Of a stretch of DNA of 64,000 nucleotides, positions 5,630 through 45,584 are shown in pieces. Source of the stretch: Pseudonocardia asaccharolytica DSM 44247 = NBRC 16224 (GTDB lineage Bacteria > Actinomycetota > Actinomycetes > Mycobacteriales > Pseudonocardiaceae); contig NZ_AUII01000002.1 in assembly GCF_000423625.1 (NCBI RefSeq), forward strand, positions 186,001 through 250,000. The letters run 5' to 3'. The notes below the pieces were generated by a model. The model made no database searches and was not told where the DNA came from. It was given only the letters and a program-made list of their open reading frames with translations. The position numbers and the translations under genes are program-made. How positions within the stretch are numbered: the stretch's first letter is position 1; each line of letters begins with the position of its first letter.

Positions 5630-5736
5630 GCCAGGAAGGACCGGCGCGGGGGTCGCGACTCATCGGTCCAGGCCGGGCCGCGGCTCCCTGCCCGGCCGTG
5701 AGCCGGGTGCGTCCCGGAGCGGGAACCGGCGAGGGC

Positions 5737-8493: not shown

Positions 8494-8494
8494 C

Positions 8495-9262: not shown

Positions 9263-9357
9263 CGTGTCACCGTTTCACGCCCCACCGACAGTTTCGCGAA
9301 GGGAGGCAGCGCCGTTCCTCCGCCCGCCGAAGCGAGCGGTCTCCCGGCGCAACTCTG

Positions 9358-11406: not shown

Positions 11407-11478
11407 TACTCGCGGGCTGATCCCGGCTCCGGGCCGGCGCCGGTGCCGCATCGTCCAGAATGGATCTGCCAAACCTGT

Positions 11479-11493
11479 TGACAATCGTTTTCA
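11479..11493 (+). promoter_or_regulatory. Candidate Zur/Fur-type box
   Basis: TGACAATCGTTTTCA is a 7-1-7 imperfect palindrome that differs at two positions from the pattern TGAAAATCATTTTCA described for actinobacterial Zur sites. It stands in an unusually AT-rich patch after the M3 peptidase. What it would control is unclear: the next clear gene begins more than 400 bp away. The assignment rests on motif resemblance only. Confidence 0.35.
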
Positions 11494-11919: not shown

Positions 11920-12561
11920 ATGGCCAGCGTGGGGCTGCTCTATGTCGGAGCCGTGCTGTTCCTCAACGGAGTAATGCTGCTGGGTTGGGTCGACGCCCGT
12001 GCGGCCGCCCCGCTCAACCTGTTCGTCGGGCTGCTCCAGGTCGTCACCCCTACCTATCTGATCTTCACTGCCCAGGGCGACCCGGCCATCGTCCTCAACG
12101 CCTCCGGGCTGTACCTGTTCGGGTTCACCTACCTCTACGTCGCGTTCAACCTGCTCGCCGACCTGGACAGCACCGGCGTCGGCTACTTCTCCGCCTTCGT
12201 CGCCGTCTGCGCGCTGGCGTACTCCGGGCTGAACTTCTTCCAGGTGGGTGACAACGCCTTCGGGGTGATCTGGCTGTACTGGGCCTTCCTCTGGTTCCTG
12301 TTCTTCCTGCTGCTGGGTCGCAAGATGGAGCCGATCACCCGCTATACGGGTGCGGTCACCGCGATCCAGGGCTGGGTCACCGGGGCGATCCCGGCGTTCT
12401 TGCTGCTCACCGGACAGTGGGGGCGGGCCGACGCGACGACCGCGATCGCACTGGCCATCTTCGGTGTCGTCGTGTTCGGCGCGCTGTGGATGCGGATGCG
12501 TCCCAGCCAGCTCACCGTCTCGCCCGAAAGCCGTCACACCGTGGCCGAGAGCCACAGCTGA
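11920..12561 (+). CDS. amiS: AmiS/UreI family amide or urea channel
   Basis: A 213-residue integral membrane protein with six predicted hydrophobic segments, the size of AmiS/UreI channels. The N-terminus (MASVGLLYVGAVLFLNGVML) and the WLYWAFLWFLFF segment fit the family, and a hydrophilic tail of about 25 residues follows the last segment. These proteins pass short amides or urea across the cytoplasmic membrane. The formamidase gene begins 128 bp downstream on the same strand, so import of formamide or another small amide for hydrolysis to ammonia is the likely role. Confidence 0.88.
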   Translation: MASVGLLYVGAVLFLNGVMLLGWVDARAAAPLNLFVGLLQVVTPTYLIFTAQGDPAIVLNASGLYLFGFTYLYVAFNLLADLDSTGVGYFSAFVAVCALAYSGLNFFQVGDNAFGVIWLYWAFLWFLFFLLLGRKMEPITRYTGAVTAIQGWVTGAIPAFLLLTGQWGRADATTAIALAIFGVVVFGALWMRMRPSQLTVSPESRHTVAESHS

Positions 12562-29654: not shown

Positions 29655-30074
29655 ATGGCCGAAGTGCTGGCAGAAGGCTACAACGTCTTCGACACCAGCA
29701 AGTCCCCCAGCGGTACGGTCAAGTACCTGTTCTCGCCGGCGGACGTGATCAGCCTGATCCAGTCCGGGAAGCTCGCCGAGCACATCCTGCTGGTGCGCGG
29801 CGGCACCACGACCTTCCTCGCGCCGGCCCTGAGCATGGGCGCCATCGGCGTGATCACGATGTCCGGCGCGCCGGAGTCGCACCTGGGGATTCTCTCGCGC
29901 GAGTTTCAGACGCCCTGCGTCATGACCGCCTACCTCACTGACAGCGAGTCCCGCTACGTCGTCGGCGACACCGACGAAGCCCATTTCGAGGAGATCGCGA
30001 AGGCCCTCGACGGCCGGCGGGTTCGGCTCGACTGCACCGACCACGAGGTCGGACGCGTCGTCGCCGACGACTGA
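29655..30074 (+). CDS. Free-standing PEP-utilising-enzyme swivelling (phosphohistidine) domain protein
   Basis: A 139-residue protein. Residues about 25-105 resemble the mobile phosphohistidine domain of PEP synthase and pyruvate phosphate dikinase. The text VITMSGAPESHLGILSREFQ corresponds to the TxGGxTSHAAIVARE motif, with His76 at the phosphoacceptor position. In the large enzymes this domain swings between the ATP-grasp and substrate sites; here it is a separate protein. The start is ATG 29655 after AAGGAGGA. It heads a four-gene set with the 477-residue protein, the winged-helix protein and the dikinase-like protein. It probably carries phosphate for that complex; this is inference. Confidence 0.7.
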   Translation: MAEVLAEGYNVFDTSKSPSGTVKYLFSPADVISLIQSGKLAEHILLVRGGTTTFLAPALSMGAIGVITMSGAPESHLGILSREFQTPCVMTAYLTDSESRYVVGDTDEAHFEEIAKALDGRRVRLDCTDHEVGRVVADD

Positions 30075-30123
30075 GACCGGCCCCGATCCCATCCCGAGGC
30101 GCAGACAAGGAGAGAAGACCGAC

Positions 30124-31557
30124 GTGACGACCACCGAGGGCAAGCGCGCGACCTACAAGCAGCGGTACTCCGAAGGCGACGACGGCCTCCGCTTCCAGGA
30201 GCTCACCTACACCGGCAACTTCGTCGGCATGGAGCCCGTCACCGATGGGATCAAGGGTGACAAGATGATGAAGGCGCGCGCCAAGAGCGGCGTGCTGGAG
30301 CGGGTGTCGAGGGAGGACGTCCTCCGCGATCAGTTCACCATCGACGAGCTCAACGACCTGAACAACTACCTGGCCTGGAACATCTGGGATGTGCTCGTCA
30401 TGCGCGCCACGGAGGGCGTCAGCGGCATGATCCCGCGCCAGGAGTACGAGATCCTGGCCTTCATGCATGAGTTCTACCGGTGGCCGGAGATCCTGCGCAT
30501 GACCACCGACGAGGTCGGCGGCGGTCAGGGGATCATGGACATCGGGGCGACGGCGCGGCGCGAGATCGGTACCAAGGTCAACGCCGTGCACGACTGGTGC
30601 ATCGGGGCCGTCGGCTTCGGCATGGGTCGCTGCGGCTTGCTCGCCCTCGAGGCGATCAAGCCCGACGACTACATCGAGGAGTCGAACGAAATCCTCAAAT
30701 TCATGCAGCGGGTGCTGTGGGGCAAGCGCCAGGACGGGTACATCCTCAACTCCCAGGACCGCTACCGCTGCCGGATCCACGAGCCCGACTTCATCGCGCA
30801 GCTCACTCCGCAGCTCGAGGCGCTCGAGGCAGGCAGCCCGAAGCACAGCGCGTTCACACAATTCAACGCGGCCGCTGAGCTGCTGTCCTTCCTCGACCAC
30901 TACGACTGCCGACTCGGCCTGGGCGACACCGGCCCCTATGAGCTGCCGGACGGGCAGCTGCTTATCCTGCGGGATCTGTTCGTCAACGAGGAGGTCTTCC
31001 ACTGGAGCGATGTGTGCGAGGACGCCGGCCTTCCGCACTGCTACACGCTCGCGCTCGTGATCGACCCGGAGAAGATGGGGCTGGAGGAGATCCGGGTCAA
31101 TGACATCTCTACCACGTTCACCCGGCCGAAGAACTACATCGAGGCCATCACGGCCGGCGCGGTCTTCGTCCGCGAGAAGTGGAACACCCCGATGGGCGAG
31201 GTGTACCCGGTCAAGATCGACGACCTCGCCGAGCACCTCGGCCGCGTGCAGACCGCCACGCTGAAGCTGTACACCAAGACGTCGAAGATGTGCCGCCGGG
31301 ACCTCATCTGGAACGGGCAGTACGTCTACTACGTGGACATGATCCTCCCGCACCTGCGGCTGGCCGGCACCTACGACAAGGCGTGCCGCGACTACGACCT
31401 GTGGGAGATCGACCAGCGGATCGCCAACTACTACTACGACATCACCAAGCGCGGCTTCGCTCAGGAGACGGTGCCCAGCAAGATCTTCTCGGGCGCTGGC
31501 TACCTGCCCTTCTCCGACAACGCTGACCGCCGCCGCTCGAAGTACCGCTGGCTGTAG
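30124..31557 (+). CDS. Unrecognised 477-residue protein of the dikinase-like gene set
   Basis: I do not recognise the family. It is soluble, acidic to neutral, with many aromatic and charged residues and no signal peptide or membrane segment. Notable stretches are GFGMGRCGLLALEAIKPDDY, a His/Asp/Cys-containing HDWCIGAVGFG, FLDHYDCRLGLGDTGPYELP, and a Tyr-rich C-terminal part (NGQYVYYVDMILPHLR, RIANYYYDITKRGF). The start is GTG 30124 after AAGGAGAG. It lies 49 bp after the swivelling-domain gene and 104 bp before the winged-helix gene. It could be the catalytic or substrate-binding subunit of a multi-component phosphotransferase. That role is inferred only from the neighbours. Confidence 0.8.
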   Translation: MTTTEGKRATYKQRYSEGDDGLRFQELTYTGNFVGMEPVTDGIKGDKMMKARAKSGVLERVSREDVLRDQFTIDELNDLNNYLAWNIWDVLVMRATEGVSGMIPRQEYEILAFMHEFYRWPEILRMTTDEVGGGQGIMDIGATARREIGTKVNAVHDWCIGAVGFGMGRCGLLALEAIKPDDYIEESNEILKFMQRVLWGKRQDGYILNSQDRYRCRIHEPDFIAQLTPQLEALEAGSPKHSAFTQFNAAAELLSFLDHYDCRLGLGDTGPYELPDGQLLILRDLFVNEEVFHWSDVCEDAGLPHCYTLALVIDPEKMGLEEIRVNDISTTFTRPKNYIEAITAGAVFVREKWNTPMGEVYPVKIDDLAEHLGRVQTATLKLYTKTSKMCRRDLIWNGQYVYYVDMILPHLRLAGTYDKACRDYDLWEIDQRIANYYYDITKRGFAQETVPSKIFSGAGYLPFSDNADRRRSKYRWL

Positions 31558-31661
31558 GCGCCTCGCCGGCTTCGCCGCGGACTGACTGACCCAAAGCCGG
31601 CCCCGACGGGCGGCGCGGCAGGCCCCGTCGCGCCGCCCGTCCCCGTTCGAAGGACTCTCAT

Positions 31662-32282
31662 GTGACAGCGCTTTCCCTGAGCAGGATGGACTACGACGTG
31701 CTGAACGTCGTGGTGCTGAAGAAGATGGCGACGGCCGACGCCGTAACGGCGGTCTCGGGTGTGGACCCGACGGTCGTTTCGGACGTCCTCGCCGCTCTCG
31801 CCGACCACGGCCTGGTGGTCGTCGCCGGCGGCTCGGCGCTGCCCACCGACGGAGCCGAGTCCGCCCTGGCGGCCACGGCCGCCGACCGGTACGCGGCGCT
31901 GCGCGACGACGACGCCGTTGCCGGATTGGTCGACCGCTTCGAGACCACGAACGCGCAGTTCCTCACCGCCATGTCGTCCTGGCAGCAGGTCGATATGGGT
32001 GGCCGCAAGGTGGCCAACGACCACTCCGCTCCGGACTACGACGCGAAGGTCATCGACCGGCTGCACAAGCTGGTGACGCGGCTGGGCCCGCTGTTCGAGG
32101 CGCTGGCCGGGCACGACCCGCGGTTCGCCCGCTATCCCGAGCGGTTCGATGCCGTGCTCGCCGCGATCGACGCCGGGGACCACGACCTGGTCTCGTCCCC
32201 GACCCGCGACTCGGTGCACAACATCTGGTTCGAGTTCCACGAGGACCTGCTGCGCACCCTCGGCCGGGAACGAACCGAATGA
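31662..32282 (+). CDS. Winged-helix/helical accessory protein of the dikinase-like set
   Basis: A 206-residue protein. Residues about 10-65 look like a winged helix (YDVLNVVVLKKMATADAV, then VDPTVVSDVLAALADHGLVV), similar to small HTH domains attached to some actinobacterial pyruvate-phosphate-dikinase-like proteins. The rest is helical, with WQQVDMGGRKVANDHSAPDY in the middle. It starts at GTG 31662 and ends ATGA over the dikinase-like start, so the two are translationally coupled. More likely an assembly or substrate-binding partner than a classical transcription factor, but a regulatory role cannot be excluded. Confidence 0.72.
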   Translation: MTALSLSRMDYDVLNVVVLKKMATADAVTAVSGVDPTVVSDVLAALADHGLVVVAGGSALPTDGAESALAATAADRYAALRDDDAVAGLVDRFETTNAQFLTAMSSWQQVDMGGRKVANDHSAPDYDAKVIDRLHKLVTRLGPLFEALAGHDPRFARYPERFDAVLAAIDAGDHDLVSSPTRDSVHNIWFEFHEDLLRTLGRERTE

Positions 32283-34801
32283 GCAGCCCCACCGTGGCGA
32301 CGACGGGTCCCGGCGGCACCGCTGACGCCGGCTACACCCGGGTCTTCGCCGAGGCGGATCCCTCCGACGTCGACTGGCTCGGCGGCAAGGGCGCCGGCCT
32401 GGCGCGGATGACGCAGCAGGGCCTGCGGGTACCCCCCGGCTACGTCATCGGAACCGGAGCCTGCCGTCGCTACCTGGAGGAGGGGACGCTGCCGGCCGGC
32501 CTCGCCGACGAGGTCCTCGCCCGGCTGGCCGACTTGGAGCGCGCCGCCGGCAAGATGTTCGGCGGCGGCCCGGTGCCGCTGCTGCTCTCGGTGCGATCCG
32601 GGGCGCCGATCTCCATGCCGGGGATGATGGACACGATCCTCAACCTCGGTCTGGACCGCGCCGCCGCGCTCGCCATGGCGGAGGCGACGGGCGATGCGCG
32701 CTTCGTCGCCGACCTGGTCGCCCGGTTCCACGCGATGTACGCAGAGACCGTGTTGGGCGCGATGGACCGCGGCGAGGGGATCGACGAGCTGGTCGCCGGG
32801 GTCGCCCCCGCCGACGATCCCGGCGCCGTCTACGACCGGATCTGGGACGCCTGCCAACGCGCGTTGGCCGACGACACCTGCGATGCGGTCCCCGACGACC
32901 CGCGTGCCCAGCTGCTCGGCGCGGTCGAGGCGGTTTTCCGCTCGTGGAACACGCGCCGGGCCCGCACCTACCGCGACCACCACAAGATCCCGCACGACAT
33001 CGGCACCGCCGTCGTAGTACAGGCGATGGTGTTCGGCAACCTGTCCGCGGACTCCGGGTCCGGCGTGGTGTTCACGCGCGACCCCGTCACCGGGGAACCG
33101 GGCCTGTTCGGCGAGTACCTCGCCCACAGCCAGGGCGAGGATGTTGTCGCGGGCACCCGCACGCCCGACCCGATCGCCGAGGCGCTCGACCCGGCGGTGC
33201 TCGACGAGCTGGGAACGACATGCTCCGAGCTGGAGCGCAGCCAGGGTGACGTCCTCGACATCGAGTTCACCGTCGAGCGGTCGGTCCTGTACTTCCTGCA
33301 GGTGCGCAGCGCGAAACGCACGCCGGAGGCGGCGGTCCGGATCGCCGCCGATTTCCTGCACGAGGGAACGGCACCGGCCGTGGCGACGCGCCACGTCTCG
33401 CCCGCGCACGTCCGGCAGGTGCAGCGGCCCGGATTCGATCCCGGGGAGGTCGACCGCGCCCGCTCGGGCGACCGGCTGCTCACGACCGGAATCGGCGCCT
33501 GCCCCGGCCAGGTCGGCGGCGCGCTCGTGCTGGACTCCGACCGCGCCAAGGCCGCCGCCGACGCCGGAGGCGAGGTGATCCTGGCCAGGCCGGTCACCAG
33601 CCCCGCGGACCTCCACGGCATGATCGCGTCCCGCGGCATCGTCACCGCGACCGGCGGGTCGACCAGCCACGCCGCTGTCGTCGCCCGCGCGTTGGGCACC
33701 GTCTGCGTGGTCGGCGCGGGGGAGATCCGCGTCGACGAGGCGTCCCGCACACTCGCCGTCGGTGATCGGACGCTGAGGGAGGGGGACGAGGTCTCGCTGG
33801 ACGGATCGACGGGTGAGCTGTTCGCCGGGCGGTTCCCGACGGCCACGCCCGCGGCCGCGACCGACGCCCTCGCCGCGCTGCTGGCGGCCGCCACGTCGGC
33901 GAGCGGTTGCGAGGTGCTCAGCCGAGTCACCCTGCCCGCCGACGTCGCCGAGGCGATGGCCGCCGGCGCCGCCGGCCTGGTGACCGCCGTCGACGACGTC
34001 CTCGCCGCCACCGGGCACCTCGACGGCCTGGTCGAGGGGTTGCTCGGTCAGGGAGCGGGTGCGGACGGCTTCGGCGGAATCGCGGCCCTGGTGGAGGCCG
34101 AGTTCGCCCCGCTGCTGGCGGCCGCCGGCGACGTGGAGGTCGGCGTGCGCGCGATCGACCTCGTCGCCGACGAGGCCCGCGAGTTGCTGCAGCAGACCGC
34201 GGTCACCACCCGGCACCCGGAGCTCTCGGTCCCGCTCGGGCGGCCGGAGCTGGTACGGGCGCAACTCGAGGGCCTGCGGCGGGCACTGCGGGAGTCCGGG
34301 TCCGGGGCCCGCATCCATCTCGCCGTCCGACACGTCAGCGACCCCGCCGAGGCGCGGGCACTGCACGCCCTCGCCGAGCAGGTCGGGCCGGAGATCGCCG
34401 TCGGCACATACCTGACCAGCCCGCGCGCCGCGCACGGCGCGGTGGACATCGCCGCGGTCAGCGACGTCGTCTGGCTCGAGGTGCGCACGCTGCAGGCTGC
34501 GATGTTCGGCATCCCCGCCCGCCAGCTGCTCACCGCCGAGCCGCTGGACGGTTATCTGCGCCGCGGTTTGCTGAGCTGTGACCCGCGCACCACGCTGGAT
34601 CCGTCGGTCCAGCGCCTGCTGCAGGGCGTCGCCGAGGCGACCGACCGATCCGGCGACAAGGTCGGGATGCGGCTGTCCGGCGAGGTCTCCGAGACCGCGG
34701 CAGCGCAGCTGTACGCGCTCGGCTTCCGCCGGTTCGCGGTGGACGCCGCGGAGACTCGCCCTCTCATCCTCGCGCTGGGCAAGGCCGGGCTCGCCCGCTG
34801 A
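32279..34801 (+). CDS. Pyruvate phosphate dikinase-like protein with diverged C-terminal barrel
   Basis: An 840-residue protein in the order of PPDK. The ATP-grasp domain (residues about 20-345) has LGGKGAGLARMTQQGLRVPP, LLLSVRSGAPISMPGMMDTI, GVVFTRDPVTGEPGLFGEYL and DVLDIEFTVERSVLYFLQVR. The swivelling domain carries His464 in TATGGSTSHAAVVARALG. The C-terminal region (about 520-840) should be the PEP/pyruvate barrel, yet lacks the usual GLCRTEHMF, TNDLTQ and CGE signatures; SGE stands where CGE is expected. ATP-driven phosphorylation of the His seems possible, but pyruvate need not be the acceptor. It overlaps the upstream gene by 4 nt and converges on a HAD phosphatase gene. Confidence 0.85.
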   Translation: MSSPTVATTGPGGTADAGYTRVFAEADPSDVDWLGGKGAGLARMTQQGLRVPPGYVIGTGACRRYLEEGTLPAGLADEVLARLADLERAAGKMFGGGPVPLLLSVRSGAPISMPGMMDTILNLGLDRAAALAMAEATGDARFVADLVARFHAMYAETVLGAMDRGEGIDELVAGVAPADDPGAVYDRIWDACQRALADDTCDAVPDDPRAQLLGAVEAVFRSWNTRRARTYRDHHKIPHDIGTAVVVQAMVFGNLSADSGSGVVFTRDPVTGEPGLFGEYLAHSQGEDVVAGTRTPDPIAEALDPAVLDELGTTCSELERSQGDVLDIEFTVERSVLYFLQVRSAKRTPEAAVRIAADFLHEGTAPAVATRHVSPAHVRQVQRPGFDPGEVDRARSGDRLLTTGIGACPGQVGGALVLDSDRAKAAADAGGEVILARPVTSPADLHGMIASRGIVTATGGSTSHAAVVARALGTVCVVGAGEIRVDEASRTLAVGDRTLREGDEVSLDGSTGELFAGRFPTATPAAATDALAALLAAATSASGCEVLSRVTLPADVAEAMAAGAAGLVTAVDDVLAATGHLDGLVEGLLGQGAGADGFGGIAALVEAEFAPLLAAAGDVEVGVRAIDLVADEARELLQQTAVTTRHPELSVPLGRPELVRAQLEGLRRALRESGSGARIHLAVRHVSDPAEARALHALAEQVGPEIAVGTYLTSPRAAHGAVDIAAVSDVVWLEVRTLQAAMFGIPARQLLTAEPLDGYLRRGLLSCDPRTTLDPSVQRLLQGVAEATDRSGDKVGMRLSGEVSETAAAQLYALGFRRFAVDAAETRPLILALGKAGLAR

Positions 34802-34830: not shown

Positions 34831-35814
34831 TCATCCACGACGGCACACCCGCCGGATCGCGGCCACGAGCTCGTCCTCCGCGGTAGCGCCCGGTCGTCCT
34901 GCCGTGGCCGCCCCGGACGGTGCCGGCCTCGGGAGCCGCACGCCGGCCATTCGCCTCCGGTTGCGGCGCACCGCCGCTGCGGCCGCCACCCCACCGTCGG
35001 CGCTCGCGGTACCGGCCGGCGCGCCGCCGCAGCCGCATCCGCAGTCCGACGTCGGCTCCGCGAGCTCCCTCGGCACCACACATGCACCGTCCGGTGGACG
35101 AGCGGCGGCGTCACCCAGTAGATACGGAGCGATCTCCTGGGGCCACAGCGCGACGAACTCGGCGCCGGCGGCGGTGAGCTCCTCGACCGTGTGCATGCCC
35201 CAGGCCACGCCAATGACGCGGATGCCTACCTCCAACGCGTCCCGCACGTCGCCCGCGGTGTCGGTGACCAGGACGGTGCTCGCCCCGTCGAGCTCCACCT
35301 GTCGGCCGGCCTCGTCGTAGTCGGCGCTGCACCGGCGTCCGAAGCCGCTGCCCCCGTCCGCGAGGAACGCGCGCATGGCAGTGCGCTTGTCCGGCGTCAC
35401 GTCTCCACCGAAGACGTGCGCGAAGCAGAACGCCAACGCGTTCGATTCCAGGACCCGGCGCAGCACCTGGGTCGCATTCGAGGACATCACGGCGAGGGTG
35501 CAGTCAGCGGCGAGTCGGCGCACGACGTCGCCCACCCCGGGGACCAGGGGCGGGGTGTACTCGTCGCGCAGCAGCTGCAGGAAGGCTTCCTTGACCTCGT
35601 CGGCGTGCGCCTCGTCGCGGCACAGCTTCCGGATCGAGGCGTAGACGTTGCCCTGGAACAGGCCGAAGTACTGCTCCGGCCGGTCGACCCCGAGCCCGAA
35701 CCGTCTGCTGACCTTCTCGAAGATCTCCCACGACGCCACACGGGTCTGCACCAGCGTGCCGTCGAGGTCGAAGATCACCGCCCGGACCGGCGGCCGGGCC
35801 TGCACCGGGATCAT
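34831..35814 (-). CDS. HAD-superfamily phosphatase with Cys-rich C-terminal tail
   Basis: A 327-residue protein. Residues 1-235 form a phosphoglycolate-phosphatase-like HAD domain: motif I VIFDLDGTLVQTR, motif II TLAVMSSNATQ, the motif III Lys in DVTPDKRTAMRAF, and motif IV TVLVTDTAGDVRDAL. About 80 extra residues follow and include SDCGCGCGG, a possible metal or thiol site not usual for the family. The start ATG 35814 overlaps the stop of the DUF7064-like gene. The pair is divergent from the BMC shell operon and shares its palindrome-bearing promoter region. Hydrolysis of a phosphorylated intermediate is a reasonable inference. Confidence 0.82.
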   Translation of the reverse strand: MIPVQARPPVRAVIFDLDGTLVQTRVASWEIFEKVSRRFGLGVDRPEQYFGLFQGNVYASIRKLCRDEAHADEVKEAFLQLLRDEYTPPLVPGVGDVVRRLAADCTLAVMSSNATQVLRRVLESNALAFCFAHVFGGDVTPDKRTAMRAFLADGGSGFGRRCSADYDEAGRQVELDGASTVLVTDTAGDVRDALEVGIRVIGVAWGMHTVEELTAAGAEFVALWPQEIAPYLLGDAAARPPDGACVVPRELAEPTSDCGCGCGGAPAGTASADGGVAAAAAVRRNRRRMAGVRLPRPAPSGAATAGRPGATAEDELVAAIRRVCRRG

Positions 35815-36815
35815 CCGCCCGACGACGCGTGCACCCGGTCATAGACCGCCCCGAGCTCGCCGAGCCCGATGAAGTCCATGCACTCGCCGTACCCGAGCAG
35901 GCCGTTCACGCTCCAGCGCAGCAGGCAATTGTGACCGACCGTTCCGGGCCACGCTTGCCAGGGGAAGGTGGTGAGAGCGTCGCCCTCGAGCTCCCAGGTG
36001 CGGTCGGCCGAGTCGGTCACCGAGAGCTGGATCGCCTCGGGGTAGAGACCCCGACGCCAGGTGGTGCCGCCGCCCGCCTTGAGCCCGTAGACCTTGCCGT
36101 GGTCGAGGACGTAGCCATGGGTCATCGTCTGGGCCGACGGCGCCTCCGGGCCGGCCTCGGTGTTGAAGTCGCAGATGACGTGGATCGCCAGGTCGGGCGA
36201 GACGTGCGCGTGCTGCCATGACAGTCGCGATGTCTGGCGTTCGGCACGGATCCCCCAGCTGTGGTCCATCGTGGACACGCAGTCGATGGGGGTTGTCGTC
36301 CCGCGCAGGACGATCTCGCCCTCGTAGCGCCCCGTCTGGTCGAAATGTCCGGCGTAGGCGTGGCCCCAGGTCTTGGCCAGATCGCGACCGGCCGCCATCG
36401 GGTCCATGTCCGGATCGTTGATGTCGTAGGGCTCCATCAGCGCCGTGTACCGGAAGTGCAGCTCCAGCCCGGCCGCGGCATCGGAGTAGTCGACGTCCCA
36501 CACCTTGTTGGGTTCGGAGCAGCGAACCTTCAGGCCGTTGGCCAGTTCGTAGTCGAGCAGGTTCGACGGTTTCGGCACCACCAGGTGCTCCCAGGCGTCC
36601 CAGTAGTCCGCGGCCCACGGCACGGTGACGCGCCGGGAGTTGACCGACACCGTCGAGCCGACGACGCCGAGCGGTTCGCGGAACAGCCCGTAGACACCGA
36701 TGTTCATCGGCCGATCGGTGTCCTGCCCGGCGTACAGGCCGAAGTAGTTGGTCTCGGCCCACAGCGGGTCGCTGCTGGTCGGGGGATGGAACTGCGCGTC
36801 CTCGGGACGGATCAC
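35811..36815 (-). CDS. DUF7064/DUF7065-like protein of unknown function
   Basis: A 334-residue soluble protein rich in Trp, Tyr, His and Asp, resembling DUF7064/7065 (AttH/lipocalin-like beta-rich) proteins of actinobacterial lipid and steroid clusters. Landmarks are SSDPLWAETNYFGLYAG near the start, CVSTMDHSWGIRAERQTSRL in the centre and LLRWSVNGLLGYGECMDF near the end. The start is GTG 36815, spaced well after GAGGAGG; the longer open frame upstream covers the promoter and is not real. It precedes the HAD gene with a 4-nt overlap and is divergent from the BMC-P gene. Binding or isomerisation of a hydrophobic substrate is possible; function unknown. Confidence 0.75.
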   Translation of the reverse strand: MIRPEDAQFHPPTSSDPLWAETNYFGLYAGQDTDRPMNIGVYGLFREPLGVVGSTVSVNSRRVTVPWAADYWDAWEHLVVPKPSNLLDYELANGLKVRCSEPNKVWDVDYSDAAAGLELHFRYTALMEPYDINDPDMDPMAAGRDLAKTWGHAYAGHFDQTGRYEGEIVLRGTTTPIDCVSTMDHSWGIRAERQTSRLSWQHAHVSPDLAIHVICDFNTEAGPEAPSAQTMTHGYVLDHGKVYGLKAGGGTTWRRGLYPEAIQLSVTDSADRTWELEGDALTTFPWQAWPGTVGHNCLLRWSVNGLLGYGECMDFIGLGELGAVYDRVHASSGG

Positions 36816-36995: not shown

Positions 36996-37289
36996 ATGCA
37001 GCTGGCCAAGGTGCTCGGCCAGGTCGTCTCGACCGCCAAGGAACCCGGTCTCGCCCGGTTCACGCTGTTGCTGGTACAGGACGCCTCCGGCGCCGATCCC
37101 GAGCGGACGAGCGGGGCCGCCTACGTCGCGGTCGACCTCGTCGGTGCGGGCGTCGGTGAGGTGGTCCTCGTGACCACCGGCGGCGCTGCCCGGGTCGCGG
37201 CCGGCGCCGACACCCCGACCGACAGGGCCGTCGTCGCCATCGCCGACACAGTGGTGCGGTCCGGCTCGGTCGCTTACCAGAAGACGTGA
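36996..37289 (+). CDS. BMC-P pentameric shell protein (EutN/CcmL family)
   Basis: A 97-residue protein of the EutN/CcmL family. The N-terminus [15 protein letters not shown] is the family signature, followed by a beta-barrel core ([30 protein letters not shown]) and the [15 protein letters not shown] segment near the C-terminus. Pentamers of this protein cap the vertices of the polyhedral shell. The start is ATG 36996 after GGAGG. It heads the shell/enzyme operon on the plus strand; the BMC-H gene follows after 86 bp. Confidence 0.92.
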
Positions 37290-37375: not shown

Positions 37376-37702
37376 ATGGCTGCAACCACCGCAGGCGGGA
37401 ACGGGGCGCCGGCGCTCCGCGGTGCCCTGGGTCTGATCGAGACGAAGGGCCTGGTCGGGGCTGTCGAGGCCGCCGACGCGATGGTGAAGGCCGCCAACGT
37501 GCAGATCGTCGGCCACCGCGAGATCGGCGGCGGCCTGGTGACGGTGATGGTGCGTGGCGACGTCGGGGCGGTGAAGGCCGCGACGGACGCCGGAGCGGTT
37601 GCGGCGGGGAAGGCCGGAGAGGTTGTCTCGGTGCACGTCATCCCGCGCCCGCACGACGAGACCGAGAGCATCCTGGCGGCCCTCACCCAACCGAAGGGCT
37701 GA
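37376..37702 (+). CDS. BMC-H hexameric shell protein (PduA/EutM family), copy 1
   Basis: A 108-residue shell protein with an N-terminal extension of about 18 residues before the BMC domain ([53 protein letters not shown]). Hexamers tile the facets of the compartment. The central-pore loop reads EIGGGLV, small and neutral like PduA, and would pass small polar metabolites. The ATG at 37376 is preferred: GGAGG at 37366-37370 lies just upstream. An ATG at 37364 is less likely. It is a close paralogue of the BMC-H at 45.3-45.6 kb, which has a different pore loop. Confidence 0.93.
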
Positions 37703-37785: not shown

Positions 37786-39186
37786 ATGACCGCCGCCATT
37801 GATACCGCTCTGGACGCCGATCTCGCCGCGCTCGCCGACGTGCGGGCCAAGGCGCGCGCCGCCCGCCGCGCTTTCGAGGCACTCGAGGGCACCGACCAGG
37901 AGACGCTCGACCGGTACGTGCGCGCGATGGCACTGGCCGGCACGAAGGCCGCCGAGGAGCTCGCCCGGCTGGCCGTCGACGAGACCGGATACGGCGTCTA
38001 CGAGCACAAGATCTACAAGAACCGTTACAACACCGGGTTCGTCGCGAAGTGGATGCTGGAGCGTCGCGCCGTCGGAGTGCTGTGGGTCGACGACGCCGCC
38101 CGGGTCACCGCTGTGGGCGCACCGATGGGTGTGATCGGGAGCATCATCCCGGTCACCAACCCGACCTCGACCACCCTGTTCAAGAGCCTGGCCGCGGTGA
38201 AGTCGGGCAACGCGATCGTGCACGCGCCGCATCCCCGCGCCGCCCGATGCACGCTGCGGACCGCAGAGATCATGGCTGACGCGGCGGTCTCCGCCGGCGC
38301 GCCCGAGGACCTGGTCTCCTGCCTCGTTGAGCCGACGCTGCCGTCCACGCAGGAGCTGATGCGGCGCGCGGAGGTCGCGCTGGTGCTCGCGACGGGCGGG
38401 CCTGGGATGGTGCGGGCGGCCTACTCCAGCGGGAAGCCGACGATCGCGGTCGGGGCCGGCAACGTCCCCGCGTACGTGGGAGAGAGCGTCCCGGACGCCG
38501 CCGAGGCCGCCGAGATGATCATCGCCTCGAAGTCGTTCGACAACGGCACCGCGTGCGTCGCCGAGCAGTCGGTCGTGGTCGTCGACGCGGTCGCGCCGGC
38601 ATTCCTCGCGGCGTTCGAGGCCAGAGGGGCCTATTGGCTGGACGCGGCCCAGCAGGACGCGCTGGTCCGGGTGCTGTTCGACGAGCGCGGGGCCCTGCGC
38701 CCGGGCGCGGTCGGGCAGTCCGCGGTGCGGCTGGCCGAGCTTTCCGGCTTCACCGTCCCCTCGACGACCCGCGTGCTCGCGGCGGAGTTGCACTCGGTGG
38801 GCGTGGAGACCCCGCTGTCGCGCGAGATCCTCGGACCGGTCCTCTCGGTCTACAGCGCCCGCGACGCCGCGGAGGGGCTGCGGCGTTGCCGCGAGATCCT
38901 CGCCCTCGACGGGGAGGGGCACACCACCGCCGTGCACGCCGCCGACCCGGAGGAGATCGCCCCGTTCGGGACGCTGCCCGCCGGCCGGATCGTGATCAAC
39001 ACCCCGGCGCTGTTCGGCGGGATGGGCTACTCCACCGAGGTCGACCCGTCCTTCCAGCTCGGGACGGGTACGTGGAGCGGATCCATTTGCTCCGACAACG
39101 TCACTCCGCTGCATCTGATCAACATCAAGCGCATTGCGCACGAGGTCCGGCCCTGGCGGACCGTCTACGACCCGGTGGAGCTCTAG
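37786..39186 (+). CDS. CoA-acylating aldehyde dehydrogenase of the microcompartment (EutE/PduP-like)
   Basis: A 466-residue NAD-dependent aldehyde dehydrogenase. The catalytic Cys257 is in SFDNGTACVAEQSVVV, the context of CoA-acylating enzymes such as EutE and AdhE. Other motifs are GVIGSIIPVTNPTSTTLFKS and PTIAVGAGNVPAYV. It converts an aldehyde, NAD+ and CoA to acyl-CoA and NADH inside the shell; the aldehyde chain is unknown. The first 30 residues form an Ala/Arg-rich helix that could serve as an encapsulation peptide (inference). It follows BMC-H by 83 bp, with GAGGTGAGAG before ATG 37786, and abuts the EutJ-like gene. Confidence 0.92.
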   Translation: MTAAIDTALDADLAALADVRAKARAARRAFEALEGTDQETLDRYVRAMALAGTKAAEELARLAVDETGYGVYEHKIYKNRYNTGFVAKWMLERRAVGVLWVDDAARVTAVGAPMGVIGSIIPVTNPTSTTLFKSLAAVKSGNAIVHAPHPRAARCTLRTAEIMADAAVSAGAPEDLVSCLVEPTLPSTQELMRRAEVALVLATGGPGMVRAAYSSGKPTIAVGAGNVPAYVGESVPDAAEAAEMIIASKSFDNGTACVAEQSVVVVDAVAPAFLAAFEARGAYWLDAAQQDALVRVLFDERGALRPGAVGQSAVRLAELSGFTVPSTTRVLAAELHSVGVETPLSREILGPVLSVYSARDAAEGLRRCREILALDGEGHTTAVHAADPEEIAPFGTLPAGRIVINTPALFGGMGYSTEVDPSFQLGTGTWSGSICSDNVTPLHLINIKRIAHEVRPWRTVYDPVEL

Positions 39187-40002
39187 GTGACGGCCCTGGC
39201 CTGCGATCCGCGGGAGCTGCTCGCGGCGGCGGCCCGGATCGGAGCCGAACCCCCCGACGCCGTGGTCGGCCCGCTGCGGGTCGGTGTCGACCTGGGCACG
39301 GCCAGCTGCGTGCTCGTGGTCCTCGACGCCGAGGACCGGCCCGTATGGGTGGAGGCCCATCCGTCAGGGGCACTGCGCGACGGCGTCGTCGTGGACTTCG
39401 CCCGAGCCGTCGAAACCGTCGGCCGGCTCAAGGCGGCCGCGGAGCGGGCGCTCGACGTCGAGCTGACGGCCGCGACCACCGCGTATCCGCCGTGCATCCC
39501 GGTGAAGGACGCGCGGGCGTGCACCTACGTCTGTGAGTCGGCGGGCTTCGCCGATGTCGTACTCGTTGACGAGGTCTCCGCCGCGCAGCGCACGCTCGGG
39601 GTGCGTGACGGCGTCGTCGTCGATGTCGGGGGCGGCTCCACCGGCGTCGGCGTGTTCCGCGACGGCGAGCTCGTCCAGCTCGACGACCGGGCCGGCGGTG
39701 GGCATCACCTCGATCTTATGCTGGCCGGGGCGCTGGGCATCCCGCTGGAGGAGGCCGAGCCGTACAAGCGCGCGCACCCGCGCGAGGCGTTCCCGATACT
39801 GGTGCCGGGGCTGCAGCGCGTCGCGGAGAACGTGCGCGCCCTCACCCGGGGTGCCGAAGACCTGCCGCTGCACCTCGCGGGCGGCGCCCTGATGATCGCC
39901 GGCGCGGGTGACGTGCTGGCCAGGTACCTGGAGCGGCCCGTCGTGACCTATCCGCACGCCCTGTTGATCACACCCGTCGGGATCGCGAGGGCGGCCTCAT
40001 GA
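39187..40002 (+). CDS. eutJ: EutJ-like actin-fold chaperone
   Basis: A 271-residue ASKHA-fold protein like EutJ of ethanolamine compartments. The phosphate-1 motif is RVGVDLGTASCVLVVLD, phosphate-2 is VVVDVGGGSTGVGVFRDGE, and an adenosine motif lies in LAGGALMIAGAG. EutJ is thought to act as a chaperone or reactivase for compartment proteins; its exact role is not settled. GTG 39187 directly follows the aldehyde dehydrogenase stop, and the end overlaps the BMC-T gene by 4 nt. Confidence 0.86.
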   Translation: MTALACDPRELLAAAARIGAEPPDAVVGPLRVGVDLGTASCVLVVLDAEDRPVWVEAHPSGALRDGVVVDFARAVETVGRLKAAAERALDVELTAATTAYPPCIPVKDARACTYVCESAGFADVVLVDEVSAAQRTLGVRDGVVVDVGGGSTGVGVFRDGELVQLDDRAGGGHHLDLMLAGALGIPLEEAEPYKRAHPREAFPILVPGLQRVAENVRALTRGAEDLPLHLAGGALMIAGAGDVLARYLERPVVTYPHALLITPVGIARAAS

Positions 40003-40628
40003 GCGGCCCGACCCTGCGCACCTACGCGTTCGTCGACCGGATGCAGCCGCAGTGCGCTGCGCATATCGCGGCCACCAGCCCCGGCGACGTCCCGCTGGCC
40101 GGCATGGCAGAGCTCTACATCGAGATGGCTCCCGGGAACGAGGTCTTCCGGGCCGCCGACATCGCGCTCAAGACGGCGGGCGTGCGCCCGGCGCTACAGA
40201 TCATCGAGCGCGAGTTCGGGCTGCTCGAGATCCACTCCGAGCAACAGGCCGAGGTGCTGGCCTCCGGCCAGGCGATCTTGGACGAGCTCGGCATGACCGA
40301 GGCCGACCGGCTCAAACCGGTGATCGCCTCTACCCAGTTCATCACCAATGTGCACCCGTATCAGGCCCAGCTGCTCAACAAGTGGCGCAAGGGCTCGATG
40401 CTCATGCCGGGGCAGAGCCTGTTCGTGATGGAGGTCGCGCCTGCGGCCTACATCTCGATCGGCGCGAACGAGGCGGAGAAGGCCGCGAACATCACCGTCA
40501 TCGAGCTGCGCGCCGTCGGGCGCTTCGGGCGGATGTTCCTGTCCGGCAGCGAGAGCGAGGTGCAGACCGCGCGCGACGCCGCCGTCGCCGCACTGGAATC
40601 GATGCACGGACGGGAGGAGCGGCGATGA
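39999..40628 (+). CDS. BMC-T tandem-domain trimeric shell protein
   Basis: A 209-residue protein with two BMC domains in tandem, forming pseudohexameric trimers. Domain 1 covers about residues 5-100 (GMAELYIEMAPGNEVFRAAD, LLEIHSEQQAEVLASGQA). Domain 2 covers about 105-205 (AAYISIGANEAEKAANITVI, FLSGSESEVQTARDAAVAAL). Such proteins often have large gated pores for cofactors or bulky substrates. It is coupled to EutJ upstream and to the malate-dehydrogenase-like gene downstream by ATGA overlaps. Confidence 0.88.
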   Translation: MSGPTLRTYAFVDRMQPQCAAHIAATSPGDVPLAGMAELYIEMAPGNEVFRAADIALKTAGVRPALQIIEREFGLLEIHSEQQAEVLASGQAILDELGMTEADRLKPVIASTQFITNVHPYQAQLLNKWRKGSMLMPGQSLFVMEVAPAAYISIGANEAEKAANITVIELRAVGRFGRMFLSGSESEVQTARDAAVAALESMHGREERR

Positions 40629-41968
40629 CGGTGTTCGGCGCCTCCGATGTGGACGCGGCCATCGGCGGACGGCTGCACGTCGGCCCCCGTGACCTCGTCA
40701 CCCCGCTCGCGCGGGAGCGGGCCCGGGAGCTCGAGGTGGAGATCGTGGTCGGCCCCGCCCCGGCTGCGAACGAGCCGGCGGCGCCGGTGCCGGACCGCCC
40801 GACGTCCTCGGTCCCGCAGCCGACCGCGCCACCCGCGCCGGCGGCCTCGGTGCCGCCGCCTGGGCCGCCCGCACGCTCGCCGCGACCGTCCCCGACCTCG
40901 CCGATCCCGCGGGTGGCCCCCCGCCCGGCCGGATCCCGCCTGGCCCCGGCGCCGCTACGACCGCCGTCGGGTGCGCTCTACCGCAGGGGCGCACCGCTCG
41001 CCGCCGCGGTGCGGCTGAGCGGGGACTCCACACCCTCCGGGCGGGTCGTCGTGGTCGGTGCGGGCCACGTCGGCATGGTGGCGGCGATGCGGCTGGCCGA
41101 CGCCGATGTGTTCGACGAGGTCGTCCTGGTCGACATCGACGAGGGCCGCGCCGCCGGCATCGCCGTCGACCTCGTGCACACCGCCGCGCTCGGCGGGTTC
41201 GCGACGAGGGTGCGCGGAGTCGGCACCGTCGAGGCCGCCGGACCCGCCGACTACGTGATCATCACCGCGGGGCAGCCGCGCCAGCCGGGGATGAGCCGCT
41301 CCGATCTGATCAGCACGAATGCCGAGATCGTCGGCGACGTGGCCCGGCGGGTCGCGGACACCTCACCCGGCGCCGTGATCGTCGTCGTGACCAACCCGCT
41401 CGACGAGATGACCCAGCACGCCTGGCGGGCGAGCGGCTTCCCGGCCGAGCGAGTGCTGGGTATGGCCGGTGTGCTGGACACCGCCCGGTTCCAGGCGCTC
41501 GTCGCGCTCACCGGGGCCGCCCGGGCCGACCGGGTGCAGGCGTGGGCGCTCGGCAGCCACGGCGAGGAGATGGTCATCCCGCTGTCGCAGGCCACCGCCG
41601 ACGATCGCCCGCTCACCGACCTCGTAGCCGGTCCGGAGCTCGCCGCGATCGTCGACCGGGCGCGCGGCTCGGGCGCAGAGGTCGTCGGGCTGCTGAAGTC
41701 CGGCAGCGCCTTCTTCGCGCCGGGGCGGTCGGCCGCTCGCATGGTGCTCGCGATGGCCGCCGACTCCGGCGAGGTCATGCCTGCCGCGGTGCTCGCCGAC
41801 GGCACCTACGGCATACGCGACGTCTACGTCGGGCTCCCGGCCCGGCTGGGGCGCGGCGGCGTGCGCGAGATCGTTGAAATCGACCTGCGCGCGGACGAGC
41901 TCGCCGCGCTACGCGAGGCGGCCGACCGCATTCGCGAGCGTCTCGCGGCGCTCGCCGAAGTGGCGTAG
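40625..41968 (+). CDS. Malate/lactate dehydrogenase-like protein with EutQ-like N-terminus and Pro-rich linker
   Basis: A 447-residue fusion. Residues 1-42 (VFGASDVDAAIGGRLHVG, LVTPLARERARELEVEIVVG) resemble the N-terminal segment of EutQ/EutT, a module seen in BMC proteins. Residues about 43-120 are a Pro/Ala/Ser/Arg linker. From 140 on is a malate/lactate dehydrogenase: VVVVGAGHVGMVAAMRLADA, the substrate loop GQPRQPGMSRSDL with Arg at the malate position, VTNPLDEMTQ, and the catalytic His in GSHGEEMVIPL. It would reoxidise NADH made by the aldehyde dehydrogenase, with the N-terminus targeting it to the shell. That role is inferred. The start overlaps BMC-T by 4 nt. Confidence 0.85.
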   Translation: MTVFGASDVDAAIGGRLHVGPRDLVTPLARERARELEVEIVVGPAPAANEPAAPVPDRPTSSVPQPTAPPAPAASVPPPGPPARSPRPSPTSPIPRVAPRPAGSRLAPAPLRPPSGALYRRGAPLAAAVRLSGDSTPSGRVVVVGAGHVGMVAAMRLADADVFDEVVLVDIDEGRAAGIAVDLVHTAALGGFATRVRGVGTVEAAGPADYVIITAGQPRQPGMSRSDLISTNAEIVGDVARRVADTSPGAVIVVVTNPLDEMTQHAWRASGFPAERVLGMAGVLDTARFQALVALTGAARADRVQAWALGSHGEEMVIPLSQATADDRPLTDLVAGPELAAIVDRARGSGAEVVGLLKSGSAFFAPGRSAARMVLAMAADSGEVMPAAVLADGTYGIRDVYVGLPARLGRGGVREIVEIDLRADELAALREAADRIRERLAALAEVA

Positions 41969-41977: not shown

Positions 41978-43012
41978 ATGCGGGCGGTCCTGTTTGCCGC
42001 GGATGGTGCGGTCACCGTCGAATCCGTCGCGGACCCGGCGATGGTCGAGCCGACCGACGCCCTCGTGCGCGTCCGGCGGGCCGCGGTGTGCGGCACGGAC
42101 CTGCACGTCGTCGCGCATCCCGAGCATCTACCTCGGGGTACCGTGCTCGGCCACGAGTACGCCGGTGAGATCGTGGCGGTCGGCGCCGCGGTGCAGGGCC
42201 ACCGGACCGGGGACGTCGTCGTCGGCGCGGACTTCACCGCCTGCGGACGCTGCTGGTGGTGCCGCCGAGGGGATCACTGGGAGTGCGACCGGCGCCAGTT
42301 CTTCGGCACCGGCTCGGCGTTTGGTCCCCCGCTGGCCGGTGCTCAGGCCGAGCTGGTTCGGGTTCCGTTTGCCGACACGGTGCTGCGCGCGGTCCCGCCG
42401 GACGTCCCGTTCGACGCTGCGGTGTTTCTCGGCGACACGCTCGCCACCGGCTACGCCGCCGTCCAGCGGTCCGGCCTGCGCCCGGGGGACAGCGTCGCGG
42501 TGCTCGGCGGCGGCCCCGTCGGCCAGCTCGCGAGCCTCGCCGCGCAGGCGTGCGGGGCGGGCGTGGTCGTCCTCGTCGAGCCGGTGGCGCAGCGGCGGGC
42601 ACTCGCCGCGGCCGAGGGCGCGCTGGCGGCGACCTCGGAGGCGGCCCGCGGCGTGCTCGACCGCGTCACGGACGGGCGCGGCGCGGACGTCGTGGTCGAC
42701 GCCGTCGGAGGTACGCGCGGACTGGACGCCGCGTTTGGGCTCGTCCGCCGGCGCGGCACGATCGTCTCGGTCGGCGTGCCCGCCGGGCCGACCTGGCCGC
42801 TGCCGGTCGAGCGCGCGTTCGCGGAGGAGCTGACCCTGCGCTTCGCGATCGGGGATCTGATGCGCGACGGGGATGCGCTCCTGTCGCTGCTGCGGTCCGG
42901 GATGCTGGATCCCACCGTCCTGGTGACGGACACCGTGCCGCTCGACGACGTTCCCGAGGCGTACCGGGCGATGGCCGAGCGCCGTACGCTCAAGTCCCTG
43001 ATCGCGCTATAG
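41978..43012 (+). CDS. Zinc-dependent medium-chain alcohol dehydrogenase
   Basis: A 344-residue MDR-family dehydrogenase. Catalytic-zinc ligands are in AAVCGTDLHVV and VLGHEYAGEIVAVG. The structural-zinc lobe is ACGRCWWCRRGDHWEC. The NAD(P) motif is VLGGGPVGQLASLAAQ. It interconverts an alcohol with an aldehyde or ketone. Placed 9 bp after the dehydrogenase fusion, it is probably a compartment enzyme that either feeds the aldehyde dehydrogenase or recycles NADH. No clear encapsulation peptide is seen. The PucR regulator follows. Confidence 0.9.
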   Translation: MRAVLFAADGAVTVESVADPAMVEPTDALVRVRRAAVCGTDLHVVAHPEHLPRGTVLGHEYAGEIVAVGAAVQGHRTGDVVVGADFTACGRCWWCRRGDHWECDRRQFFGTGSAFGPPLAGAQAELVRVPFADTVLRAVPPDVPFDAAVFLGDTLATGYAAVQRSGLRPGDSVAVLGGGPVGQLASLAAQACGAGVVVLVEPVAQRRALAAAEGALAATSEAARGVLDRVTDGRGADVVVDAVGGTRGLDAAFGLVRRRGTIVSVGVPAGPTWPLPVERAFAEELTLRFAIGDLMRDGDALLSLLRSGMLDPTVLVTDTVPLDDVPEAYRAMAERRTLKSLIAL

Positions 43013-43026
43013 CGGCGGAGGTGCAG

Positions 43027-45240
43027 TTGACCGCGACGCCCGACGAGCCCCCGAGGGCGGTGCCGGTGCGTGCGCTGTGGAGGCGCGGCGATGCAGCGGC
43101 CGACCTCGCCGACCTGCTCCGGACCCTCCCGTTCGACCTCGACGGGGCCGCCGGGGACCTGGCCGAACGCGCGTGCCGGCTCACCGGCACGCCGATCACG
43201 GTCGCCGCGTGGGCCGGCGACCGGTGGACGGTCCTCGCCGGGCCGCAGGCCGAGCTCACCGGGCTGCCGCCACACGGAACAGATCCCGGGGACCGCGCCG
43301 GCGTGCTCATGGTGGCCGACGGGGGCGTGGCCGTCTGCTGGGATCCGCAGGTCCCGCTCGAACCCGAGTGGCGTACCGCGCTGGGGCAGGCCTGCGCCTG
43401 GCTGTCCCTGTTGATGCTCCGCCGACACTCGGACGCCGAGATCGACGCGGCGACGGCCGAGGCTGCGGCCGTGCAGGACGTCCTGCGCCAGCTGCTATCG
43501 GTGCGCGATCTCGACCAGGTCCTGCACACCGTCGCCGAGCGCACCCTGCGGCTGCTCGACGCCGACATCTGCGGCGTGCTGCTGCGGGAGGGCGACGTCG
43601 TGCGGATGCGCGCGTGCGTCGGCAACCGCGTCGCCGAGACCGCGCGGTTGCGCATGCGTCGCGGCCAAGGCGTCGCCGGGCTGGTCTTCCTCACCGGCGA
43701 GCCGGCGAAGGTCGATTCCTACCTCGAGGACCGGACGATCAGCCAGGACTTCATGTCGTTGGCCGAGCGGGAGGAGACGCTGTCCGCACTCGCCGTGCCG
43801 CTGCGGCTGCAGGGCGAGTTCATCGGCGTCCTCGAGGTGTGGCGGCGACGCCCGTCGCGGTTCACCGAGCGGGACACCCGCCGGATGGTGACCCTCGCCG
43901 ACTTCGCCACCATCGCCATCGACAACGCCCGCCTGCACGACGAGCAGGCCGCCGCCGCCGCCGAGGCCGAGAGCGCCCGAGACGCGCTACAGGGCCAGGT
44001 GGCCGTGCTACGACGCTCCTCACGCCTGCAGCAGACGCTGCTCAGCACCGTGATCGAGGGCGGTGGGCTCCCCGCCGTCGTCCGGGCGGTCGCCACCGAG
44101 CTCGGCGGCGAGGTCGGCGTCTACGCCGGCGACGGTGGCCTCGTCACCGGCCACAGCGGCACTCGGCTGCAAAGCGCGCTGCCGTCGACCGTGCGGACGG
44201 CGCCGGGCGGGGCCGAGCCCGACCTGCGCAACGTCGCGCCGCGCAGCTGGATCCGCCCGATCTACGCGGACGGCGACCGGGTCGGGCACGTCGTCCTACT
44301 TCCCGCCGACCACTCCGACGAGCTCATGGAGGCCGCCTCGGGGCAGGTCGCGATGGCGTGTTCGCTGGCGCTGCTGCGCGAGCGCGCCGCCAGCCGAGCC
44401 CGGGCCGAGGCGATCGAGCAGGTCCTGTGGGACCTGCTGCAGGGGCCGGTCGAGCACCGGCTCGCCGCCCGCACCCGGGCCCAGCAGCTCAACCTGTCGC
44501 TGCTGGGCGGCCTCCGGGTCTTCCACGGCCGGATCGAGAACATCGACGAGCTGGCCGCCGAACACGGCTGGGACACCTCGCACACCGACCGGGTCCGCCG
44601 CGAGGTGCTACGTACCGTCCGATCCTCCGAGGACGGGCGCGGGCTCGCCCTGGCCAGCCTCCGCGGCAACATGCTCGTGGCCATCGCCGCCGACCTCGGA
44701 CGCCCTGAGGTCAAGGACCTGGTGAACGGATTCTCCGCAGCAATCCAACGCGCCCGGCCCGGGCTCAGATTGACGTGGGGCGTCAGCCGCGAGCACCGCG
44801 ACGTCCTCGATCTGCCCATCGCACTCAACGAGGCCCGCACCGCGTCCTCGGCTGCCCGCCGGCTCGGCGGGGAGAACGTGTTCCTGTACGAGGAGCTCGG
44901 CATCGTCCGGCTCCTGCTCGGCTCCGGCGACGACCCCGACCTGCAGACCTTCATCGACGAGGTCACCGGACCACTCCTCGCCTATGACCGCGAGAACGAT
45001 GGCGCCCTGGTGCGAACGCTGCGCGCCTACTTCGACGCCGACTGCTCGCAACGTTTGGCCGCTGAGCGGCTGTTCGTGCACCACAAGACGCTGCGCTACC
45101 GCCTCGAGCGCATCCGCCAGCTCACCGGCCTGGACCTCACGCGACACGAGGACCGCATGCGCGCGGACTTCGCGCTGCGACTCCTGCAGGTCAATCAGGG
45201 CGGGACCGACGAGCCGGGGGAGGAGTACCAGTCCCGCTGA
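43027..45240 (+). CDS. GAF-domain PucR/CdaR-type transcriptional regulator of the BMC locus
   Basis: A protein of about 737 residues. An N-terminal region of unknown fold (1-150) is followed by a GAF domain (LRQLLSVRDLDQVLHTVAER to TLADFATIAIDNARLHDEQ), a short coiled coil, a second sensor-like region, and a C-terminal PucR helix-turn-helix (CSQRLAAERLFVHHKTLRYR). The start is uncertain: TTG 43027 has GGAGG at 5-nt spacing, GTG 43021 overlaps that site. As last gene of the shell operon it is the natural candidate to bind the GACAA-N15-TTGTC palindromes. No stop separates the frame from upstream text inside the alcohol dehydrogenase gene. Confidence 0.85.
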   Translation: MTATPDEPPRAVPVRALWRRGDAAADLADLLRTLPFDLDGAAGDLAERACRLTGTPITVAAWAGDRWTVLAGPQAELTGLPPHGTDPGDRAGVLMVADGGVAVCWDPQVPLEPEWRTALGQACAWLSLLMLRRHSDAEIDAATAEAAAVQDVLRQLLSVRDLDQVLHTVAERTLRLLDADICGVLLREGDVVRMRACVGNRVAETARLRMRRGQGVAGLVFLTGEPAKVDSYLEDRTISQDFMSLAEREETLSALAVPLRLQGEFIGVLEVWRRRPSRFTERDTRRMVTLADFATIAIDNARLHDEQAAAAAEAESARDALQGQVAVLRRSSRLQQTLLSTVIEGGGLPAVVRAVATELGGEVGVYAGDGGLVTGHSGTRLQSALPSTVRTAPGGAEPDLRNVAPRSWIRPIYADGDRVGHVVLLPADHSDELMEAASGQVAMACSLALLRERAASRARAEAIEQVLWDLLQGPVEHRLAARTRAQQLNLSLLGGLRVFHGRIENIDELAAEHGWDTSHTDRVRREVLRTVRSSEDGRGLALASLRGNMLVAIAADLGRPEVKDLVNGFSAAIQRARPGLRLTWGVSREHRDVLDLPIALNEARTASSAARRLGGENVFLYEELGIVRLLLGSGDDPDLQTFIDEVTGPLLAYDRENDGALVRTLRAYFDADCSQRLAAERLFVHHKTLRYRLERIRQLTGLDLTRHEDRMRADFALRLLQVNQGGTDEPGEEYQSR

Positions 45241-45281: not shown

Positions 45282-45584
45282 TCAGGCAGGCGGGGATACC
45301 GCCTGGTCGACCACGGTCTCAGTCTCCCCGTGCGGGCGGGGGATGACGTGGCTGACGTACAGTTCACCGACCTGCCGTGCGGCGGCGGACCCGGCGTCTA
45401 CGGCCGCCTTCACCGCGCCGACGTCCCCGCGGACGAGCACCGACACCTGGCCGTTGCGCAAGGTCCGGTAGCCTTCGAACACAACGTTCGCCGCCTTGAC
45501 CATGGCATCGGCGGCCTCGATCGCACCGACGAGCCCCTTCGTCTCGATCAGACCCAGAGCGCCGCTTCGAGAGCTCTCCGCCAT
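45282..45584 (-). CDS. BMC-H hexameric shell protein, copy 2
   Basis: A 100-residue BMC-H protein, closely similar to the copy at 37.4 kb ([39 protein letters not shown]). Its pore loop reads TLRNGQV instead of EIGGGLV, placing Arg/Asn at the central opening and suggesting different permeability. It is transcribed toward the regulator gene as a single unit. AAGGGGAC precedes ATG 45584. Upstream, at 45677-45701, is the third copy of the locus palindrome, so it probably belongs to the same regulon. Confidence 0.92.

Follow-up and report, generated by a model that had tools for sequence, protein, structure and literature searches.

A EutQ/EutT-like N-terminal module on a malate-dehydrogenase-like enzyme as a candidate shell-docking domain in a microcompartment locus of Pseudonocardia asaccharolytica

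We analyzed a gene on the forward strand (40625-41968, +) of a 64,000-nucleotide stretch of the genome of Pseudonocardia asaccharolytica (in the following: the window, to which coordinates refer unless another locus is named), which encodes an LDH-like malate dehydrogenase of 447 amino acids, with the translation as described earlier, that carries a small N-terminal module. From our analyses we conclude that the protein is probably a luminal NAD-dependent enzyme of a MIC1-type microcompartment, which is tethered to the inner face of the shell by its module and recycles NADH. In this model, a 42-residue docking domain homologous to H1/H2 of EutQ would bind the inner shell face, most likely where the CcmP-like BMC-T protein and a BMC-H protein meet, similar to EutQ H1/H2 at EutL/EutM, and the long linker would let the enzyme hang from the shell. 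The aldehyde and alcohol dehydrogenases would make NADH, which the malate dehydrogenase would use to convert oxaloacetate, or a comparable 2-oxo acid, to malate and so restore NAD+. The model builds on the homology and conservation of the module, the catalytic residues of the enzyme, its membership in the locus and the adjacency of its gene to a BMC-T gene, all of which were observed here.

The module comprises residues 1-42 (40625-40750, +). When the module family of the dehydrogenase was aligned by hhalign against the N-termini of five EutT and three EutQ proteins, the profile comparison was significant for both (EutT: E = 2.3e-7, score 34.3; EutQ: E = 2e-6, score 30.8). The N-termini of EutQ and EutT matched each other with E = 2e-6 and are thus no closer to one another than the dehydrogenase module is to either. 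The best of 300 column shuffles each reached scores of 14.0 (EutT comparison) and 16.4 (EutQ comparison), i.e. none came near the real ones, and the likeness to EutQ and EutT noted in the preliminary description is stronger than first stated; the module is, however, not confined to these two proteins and the present enzyme. T26, P27 and A29 of the T-P-x-A motif are invariant across 14 module sequences, and omega values of 0.20-0.47 indicate purifying selection on the module, compared to 0.64-1.35 in linker residues 43-111. AlphaFold2 modeled the module with confidence (mean pLDDT 87.5) as a small fold with a beta-alpha-beta-beta-alpha-beta layout and helices at residues 6-11 and 27-36. As a mixed alpha/beta mini-domain, the modeled module would therefore not represent a classical helical encapsulation peptide. 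No Pfam model covering the module was found; the NCBIfam model TIGR02536 seemingly carries it at its C-terminus. A permuted peripheral-subunit-binding (E3_binding) fold was considered and rejected, since the Pfam match was weak (E = 0.08) and no such chain was among the Foldseek matches listed, and structural matches to eIF5B (Z ≤ 4.8) and Cas1 (about 4) were weak and uninformative.

The module is followed by a linker (residues 43-138) that consists of 30% proline and 20% alanine. Its first part, residues 43-111 (40751-40957, +), evolves nearly neutrally, differs greatly in length between orthologues and showed pLDDT values of about 25-33 in the full-length AlphaFold2 model, which was poor overall (mean pLDDT 53, 6 sequences) and was used for secondary structure and low linker confidence only. 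For this part, the disordered Pro-rich linker proposed before was borne out. Residues 112-126 (40958-41002, +) form a constrained block that had been overlooked: the motif RPPSGALYRRGAPLA was found in 11 of 13 members, with a related LxRRSPRW stretch in the two divergent ones, and its omega of 0.04-0.38 shows that it is conserved like the enzyme and the module. A tRNA-Thr predicted by ARAGORN (40774-40870, -) falls in the GC-rich coding sequence of the linker and is probably a false positive.

The module was retained in all 12 other members found, which belong to Actinomycetota and one betaproteobacterium and are each located within a microcompartment locus. Seven of them were recovered by whole-protein searches (Actinomycetospora, Kineosporia, three Pseudonocardia contigs and plasmids of Rhodococcus oxybenzonivorans and Methylibium petroleiphilum PM1), and five more were found through the module profile itself. 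The check for a microcompartment malate dehydrogenase devoid of the module thus comprises the former seven orthologues, obtained with queries and patterns mostly from the dehydrogenase domain, and 7/7 carry the module. The preliminary description had made its targeting claim depend on this presence, and the claim withstood the comparison. The start codon lies at the same position in the orthologues, and in the window the ATG shares bases with the stop codon of the preceding BMC-T gene (ATGA). A relative from the same genus (G122, loci L024/L054) retained module, linker and motif and lost the catalytic part, from which we conclude that the enzyme activity is not essential everywhere. In R. oxybenzonivorans (L015:14546-15888), module and linker form one ORF and the dehydrogenase the next ORF in another frame, which represents either a natural split or a frameshift. 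The genome of P. asaccharolytica contains a single copy of the module, the one studied here.

The surrounding locus shows a gene order that is kept across Actinomycetota. On the reverse strand, it comprises a HAD phosphatase (34831-35814, -; PF13419) and a DUF7064/DUF7065 protein (35811-36815, -; profile match and synteny), which is conserved in the locus. These are followed on the forward strand by a EutN/CcmL vertex protein (36996-37289, +; PF03319), a BMC-H shell protein (37376-37702, +; PF00936, with a start possibly at 37364 according to orthologues), an acylating-type aldehyde dehydrogenase (AldDH; 37786-39186, +; TIGR02518), the MreB-like EutJ (39187-40002, +; NCBIfam EutJ above cut-off), a BMC-T shell protein of the CcmP-like, double-stacked type (39999-40628, +; PF00936, CcmP model NF053796 below cut-off), whose gene overlaps the start of the dehydrogenase gene, the dehydrogenase itself, a zinc-type alcohol dehydrogenase (41978-43012, +; PF08240/PF00107) and a PucR/GAF-type regulator of uncertain start (43021-45240, +; PF13556, PF01590). 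The order extends into the betaproteobacterium, there without a detected regulator match. A second BMC-H gene lies at 45282-45584 (-; PF00936), and two adjacent BMC-H genes on another contig of the same genome (C1:434372-434930, L058) mark a second, different microcompartment locus. The disordered-looking C-terminal tail of the HAD phosphatase is conserved in 10 loci and ends in an encapsulation-peptide-like helix, EDELVAAIRRVCRRG, which suggests that this protein is probably a luminal enzyme. Upstream, profile matches and synteny delineate a set of genes (29655-34801, +) for a protein with a PEP-utilising mobile domain, a PPDK-like dikinase and two proteins of 206 and 477 aa, the latter matched by no Pfam or NCBIfam model. 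This set also lies beside the locus elsewhere, complete in the Rhodococcus plasmid pRB98 and only in part in PM1, with a truncated gene for the 477-aa protein, and is a candidate substrate-activating set for the compartment. No PTAC-like gene scored convincingly within the window, which we counted, together with the presence of the acylating-type AldDH, in favor of an NADH-recycling luminal enzyme.

The dehydrogenase domain spans residues 139-447 (41039-41968, +), with Pfam matches of Ldh_1_N and Ldh_1_C to residues 140-441 (E = 9e-37 and 5e-20); a match to EutQ/cupin (PF06249) was not found by Pfam, the C-terminal domain being Ldh_1. It passed the NCBIfam model PRK06223 'malate dehydrogenase' (318 bits, cut-off 283), and its best PDB matches are the bacterial malate dehydrogenases 3nep, 1gv0 and 1guy. 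The NAD-type D170, the substrate-specificity residue R219 (R102 in LDH numbering), as well as R225, D285, R288 and H312 are in place, and all intact members retained the catalytic and specificity residues. With catalytic, specificity and NAD-type residues all present, we expect the enzyme to be active and of the oxaloacetate type. The use of oxaloacetate is read from a single specificity residue, and both the substrate and the reaction direction are given here as predictions. Elsewhere, the same genome encodes another Ldh_1 protein of distant relationship, which is presumably the housekeeping malate dehydrogenase; we took this separate protein as a further argument for the luminal NADH recycler. 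In vivo, the compartment enzyme could instead reduce a different carbonyl compound produced inside the compartment and thus not act as a malate dehydrogenase. Such a role would agree with the score against the bacterial equivalog model TIGR01763, which stayed below the cut-off (294.6 bits vs 351.85), and with the His motif, which reads GSHGxEM instead of the GGHGDTM of solved relatives. The specificity position, however, is occupied in every intact member by Arg, as in malate dehydrogenases, while Gln would be expected in a lactate dehydrogenase, and we regard the other substrate as rather unlikely, even if the lactate/malate dehydrogenase of PVM loci was predicted to fulfil the alcohol-dehydrogenase function of its compartment in the main text of Axen et al. 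2014 (PMC4207490).

A profile of 14 module sequences, run on 396 actinobacterial genomes (E 1e-4), gave matches in 18 of them, including EutQ, EutT and a divergent malate dehydrogenase. The module was also found at the C-terminus of PduL and of proteins of about 160 aa, and as free-standing proteins of 86-132 aa that lack an enzyme domain, some of which consist of module and helices, like EutQ 1-99 without the cupin. Shell proteins are encoded in 20/20 loci of usable length fetched around the module-profile matches. Profile matches in Pseudonocardiaceae with E values of 0.002-0.009 (L027-L030) lay in frames of polyketide synthases or in unrelated ones, and we regard them as chance matches. On one contig of 6.6 kb (L065, G508:C21), on which no shell protein was seen, a EutT-like module lies N-terminal on a fragment of a TPP-type dehydrogenase E1 alpha subunit (4803-5399, -; with an ambiguous base inside), adjoined by a class II aldolase-like frame. 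A different compartment locus (L057, G206; 5494-12324) combines a glutamine-synthetase-like gene with a module-bearing malate dehydrogenase and harbors a free-standing module protein 2.5 kb beyond the latter. Besides, residues 6-92 of E. coli EutQ (L009:10303-11004) match the N-terminus of the EutA model NF007991 (E = 1.6e-9), hinting at EutQ-N/EutA fusions.

In all fetched loci with a recognized CcmP-like BMC-T, a module gene lies directly downstream of a BMC-T gene. In 13 of these loci the gene that follows is that of the dehydrogenase, while in 3 it encodes a free-standing adaptor and in 2 a protein of about 160 aa with C-terminal module; the loci were chosen by module or dehydrogenase, not by BMC-T, and are related, i.e. 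they do not represent 18 independent events. The boundaries of the two genes overlap in the window, in L012-L014 and in L057. In the Eut system, EutL is a BMC-T and EutM a BMC-H protein. In Salmonella, residues 9-41 of EutQ (H1/H2) were described in 2025 as the shell-binding part, which contacts the shell at the EutM/EutL interface, whereas H3/H4 hold cargo, and EutQ 1-99 alone sends sfGFP to the Eut compartment (PMC12487888). The shell-binding part of EutQ places a shell-binding reading of the module on better ground, and together with the adjacency of module genes to BMC-T genes the position of the EutQ contact provides the strongest indirect argument for docking near BMC-T. From this we infer that the module binds the shell and localizes the enzyme there.

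A different arrangement would result if the module bound other cargo, e.g. AldDH, and the protein served as a core-assembly hub rather than as a shell anchor, in which case the conserved linker motif may provide the shell or cargo contact. Indeed, the AldDH of the window lacks a C-terminal encapsulation peptide: TIGR02518 matched only up to position 449 of 488 and the aligned ends agree. The peptide is also missing in two orthologous loci, whereas relatives from Listeria and Cetobacterium have one. The conservation of the linker motif, which is as strong as that of the module, and the relative with module, linker and motif that lacks a complete dehydrogenase could be explained in the same way. 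However, it is BMC-T and not AldDH that consistently adjoins the module genes, and in EutQ the homologous H1/H2 binds the shell while cargo is held by H3/H4 (PMC12487888), so that we judge a hub to be quite improbable. The module might also be a small ligand-binding or regulatory domain that EutQ, EutT and this enzyme have in common and that plays no part in targeting. Such a domain would agree with the mini-domain fold predicted for the module and with the fact that EutT and EutQ are enzymes, but appears most improbable, since the module is also carried by PduL at its C-terminus and by proteins of about 86-132 aa that have no enzyme domain, and since EutQ 1-99 alone targeted a reporter (PMC12487888). 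Returning to the shell-docked NADH recycler, we counted against it that EutT carries the module, too, and that the G122 relative has no catalytic part. As a hypothesis, its linker motif might help the malate dehydrogenase to gather the untagged AldDH.

Whether the H1/H2 unit of EutQ serves microcompartments in general as a portable domain for docking to the shell, with BMC-T as its usual partner, is in our view an evenly balanced question. Such a unit would be used N-terminally (EutQ, EutT, malate dehydrogenases), C-terminally (PduL and others) and in free-standing shell-to-cargo adaptors, and would constitute a second targeting code alongside amphipathic encapsulation peptides. Cargo attachment to microcompartment shells is only partly understood, and short amphipathic helices are missing from some luminal enzymes; a docking domain recurring across compartment types would account for some of these. 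It would further aid the annotation of proteins of unknown function and offer another tag with which engineers could load shells. In the case of MIC1, it would also point to the malate dehydrogenase as the shell-attached NADH recycler and a possible organizer of the tagless AldDH. A malate dehydrogenase in a compartment is known in kind; the recurrent docking module, the linker motif and the adjacency to BMC-T are not described in the open literature, which, with few subscription papers, was the scope of our search.

Regarding known systems, the statement of the preliminary description that MDH-like proteins are not usual core enzymes could not be upheld, since the main text of Axen et al. 2014 already lists, for PVM and MIC1 loci, genes with Pfam domains of lactate/malate dehydrogenases, proposed for NAD+ regeneration (PMC4207490), and the compartment enzyme is therefore not unprecedented. 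PVM loci likewise combine an Ldh_1 enzyme with a metabolosome and the same proposed function. By the gene content given in that main text, the present locus matches the MIC1 type: both comprise AldDH, a lactate/malate dehydrogenase, a zinc dehydrogenase, a phosphatase and an MreB-like protein, and both are without PTAC and without an assigned signature enzyme. For MIC1, the main text of that study makes no mention of the N-terminal module, of the motif in the linker, of the peptide lacking from AldDH or of the PPDK-like neighbors. With EutQ, the protein shares a homologous H1/H2-like module followed by a flexible linker and a gene located in a shell-protein operon. They differ in that EutQ carries a cupin and the present protein a dehydrogenase, that the cargo-binding H3/H4 of EutQ have no recognizable counterpart in the module-bearing dehydrogenase, which we counted against the docking model, and that the partner shell proteins are EutL/EutM in Eut compartments, whereas here a BMC-T of the double-stacked, CcmP-like type is encoded nearby. 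Classical encapsulation peptides are amphipathic helices of 15-20 residues; like these, the module is a terminal unit on a flexible linker, but it comprises a folded domain of 42 residues instead of a short amphipathic helix.
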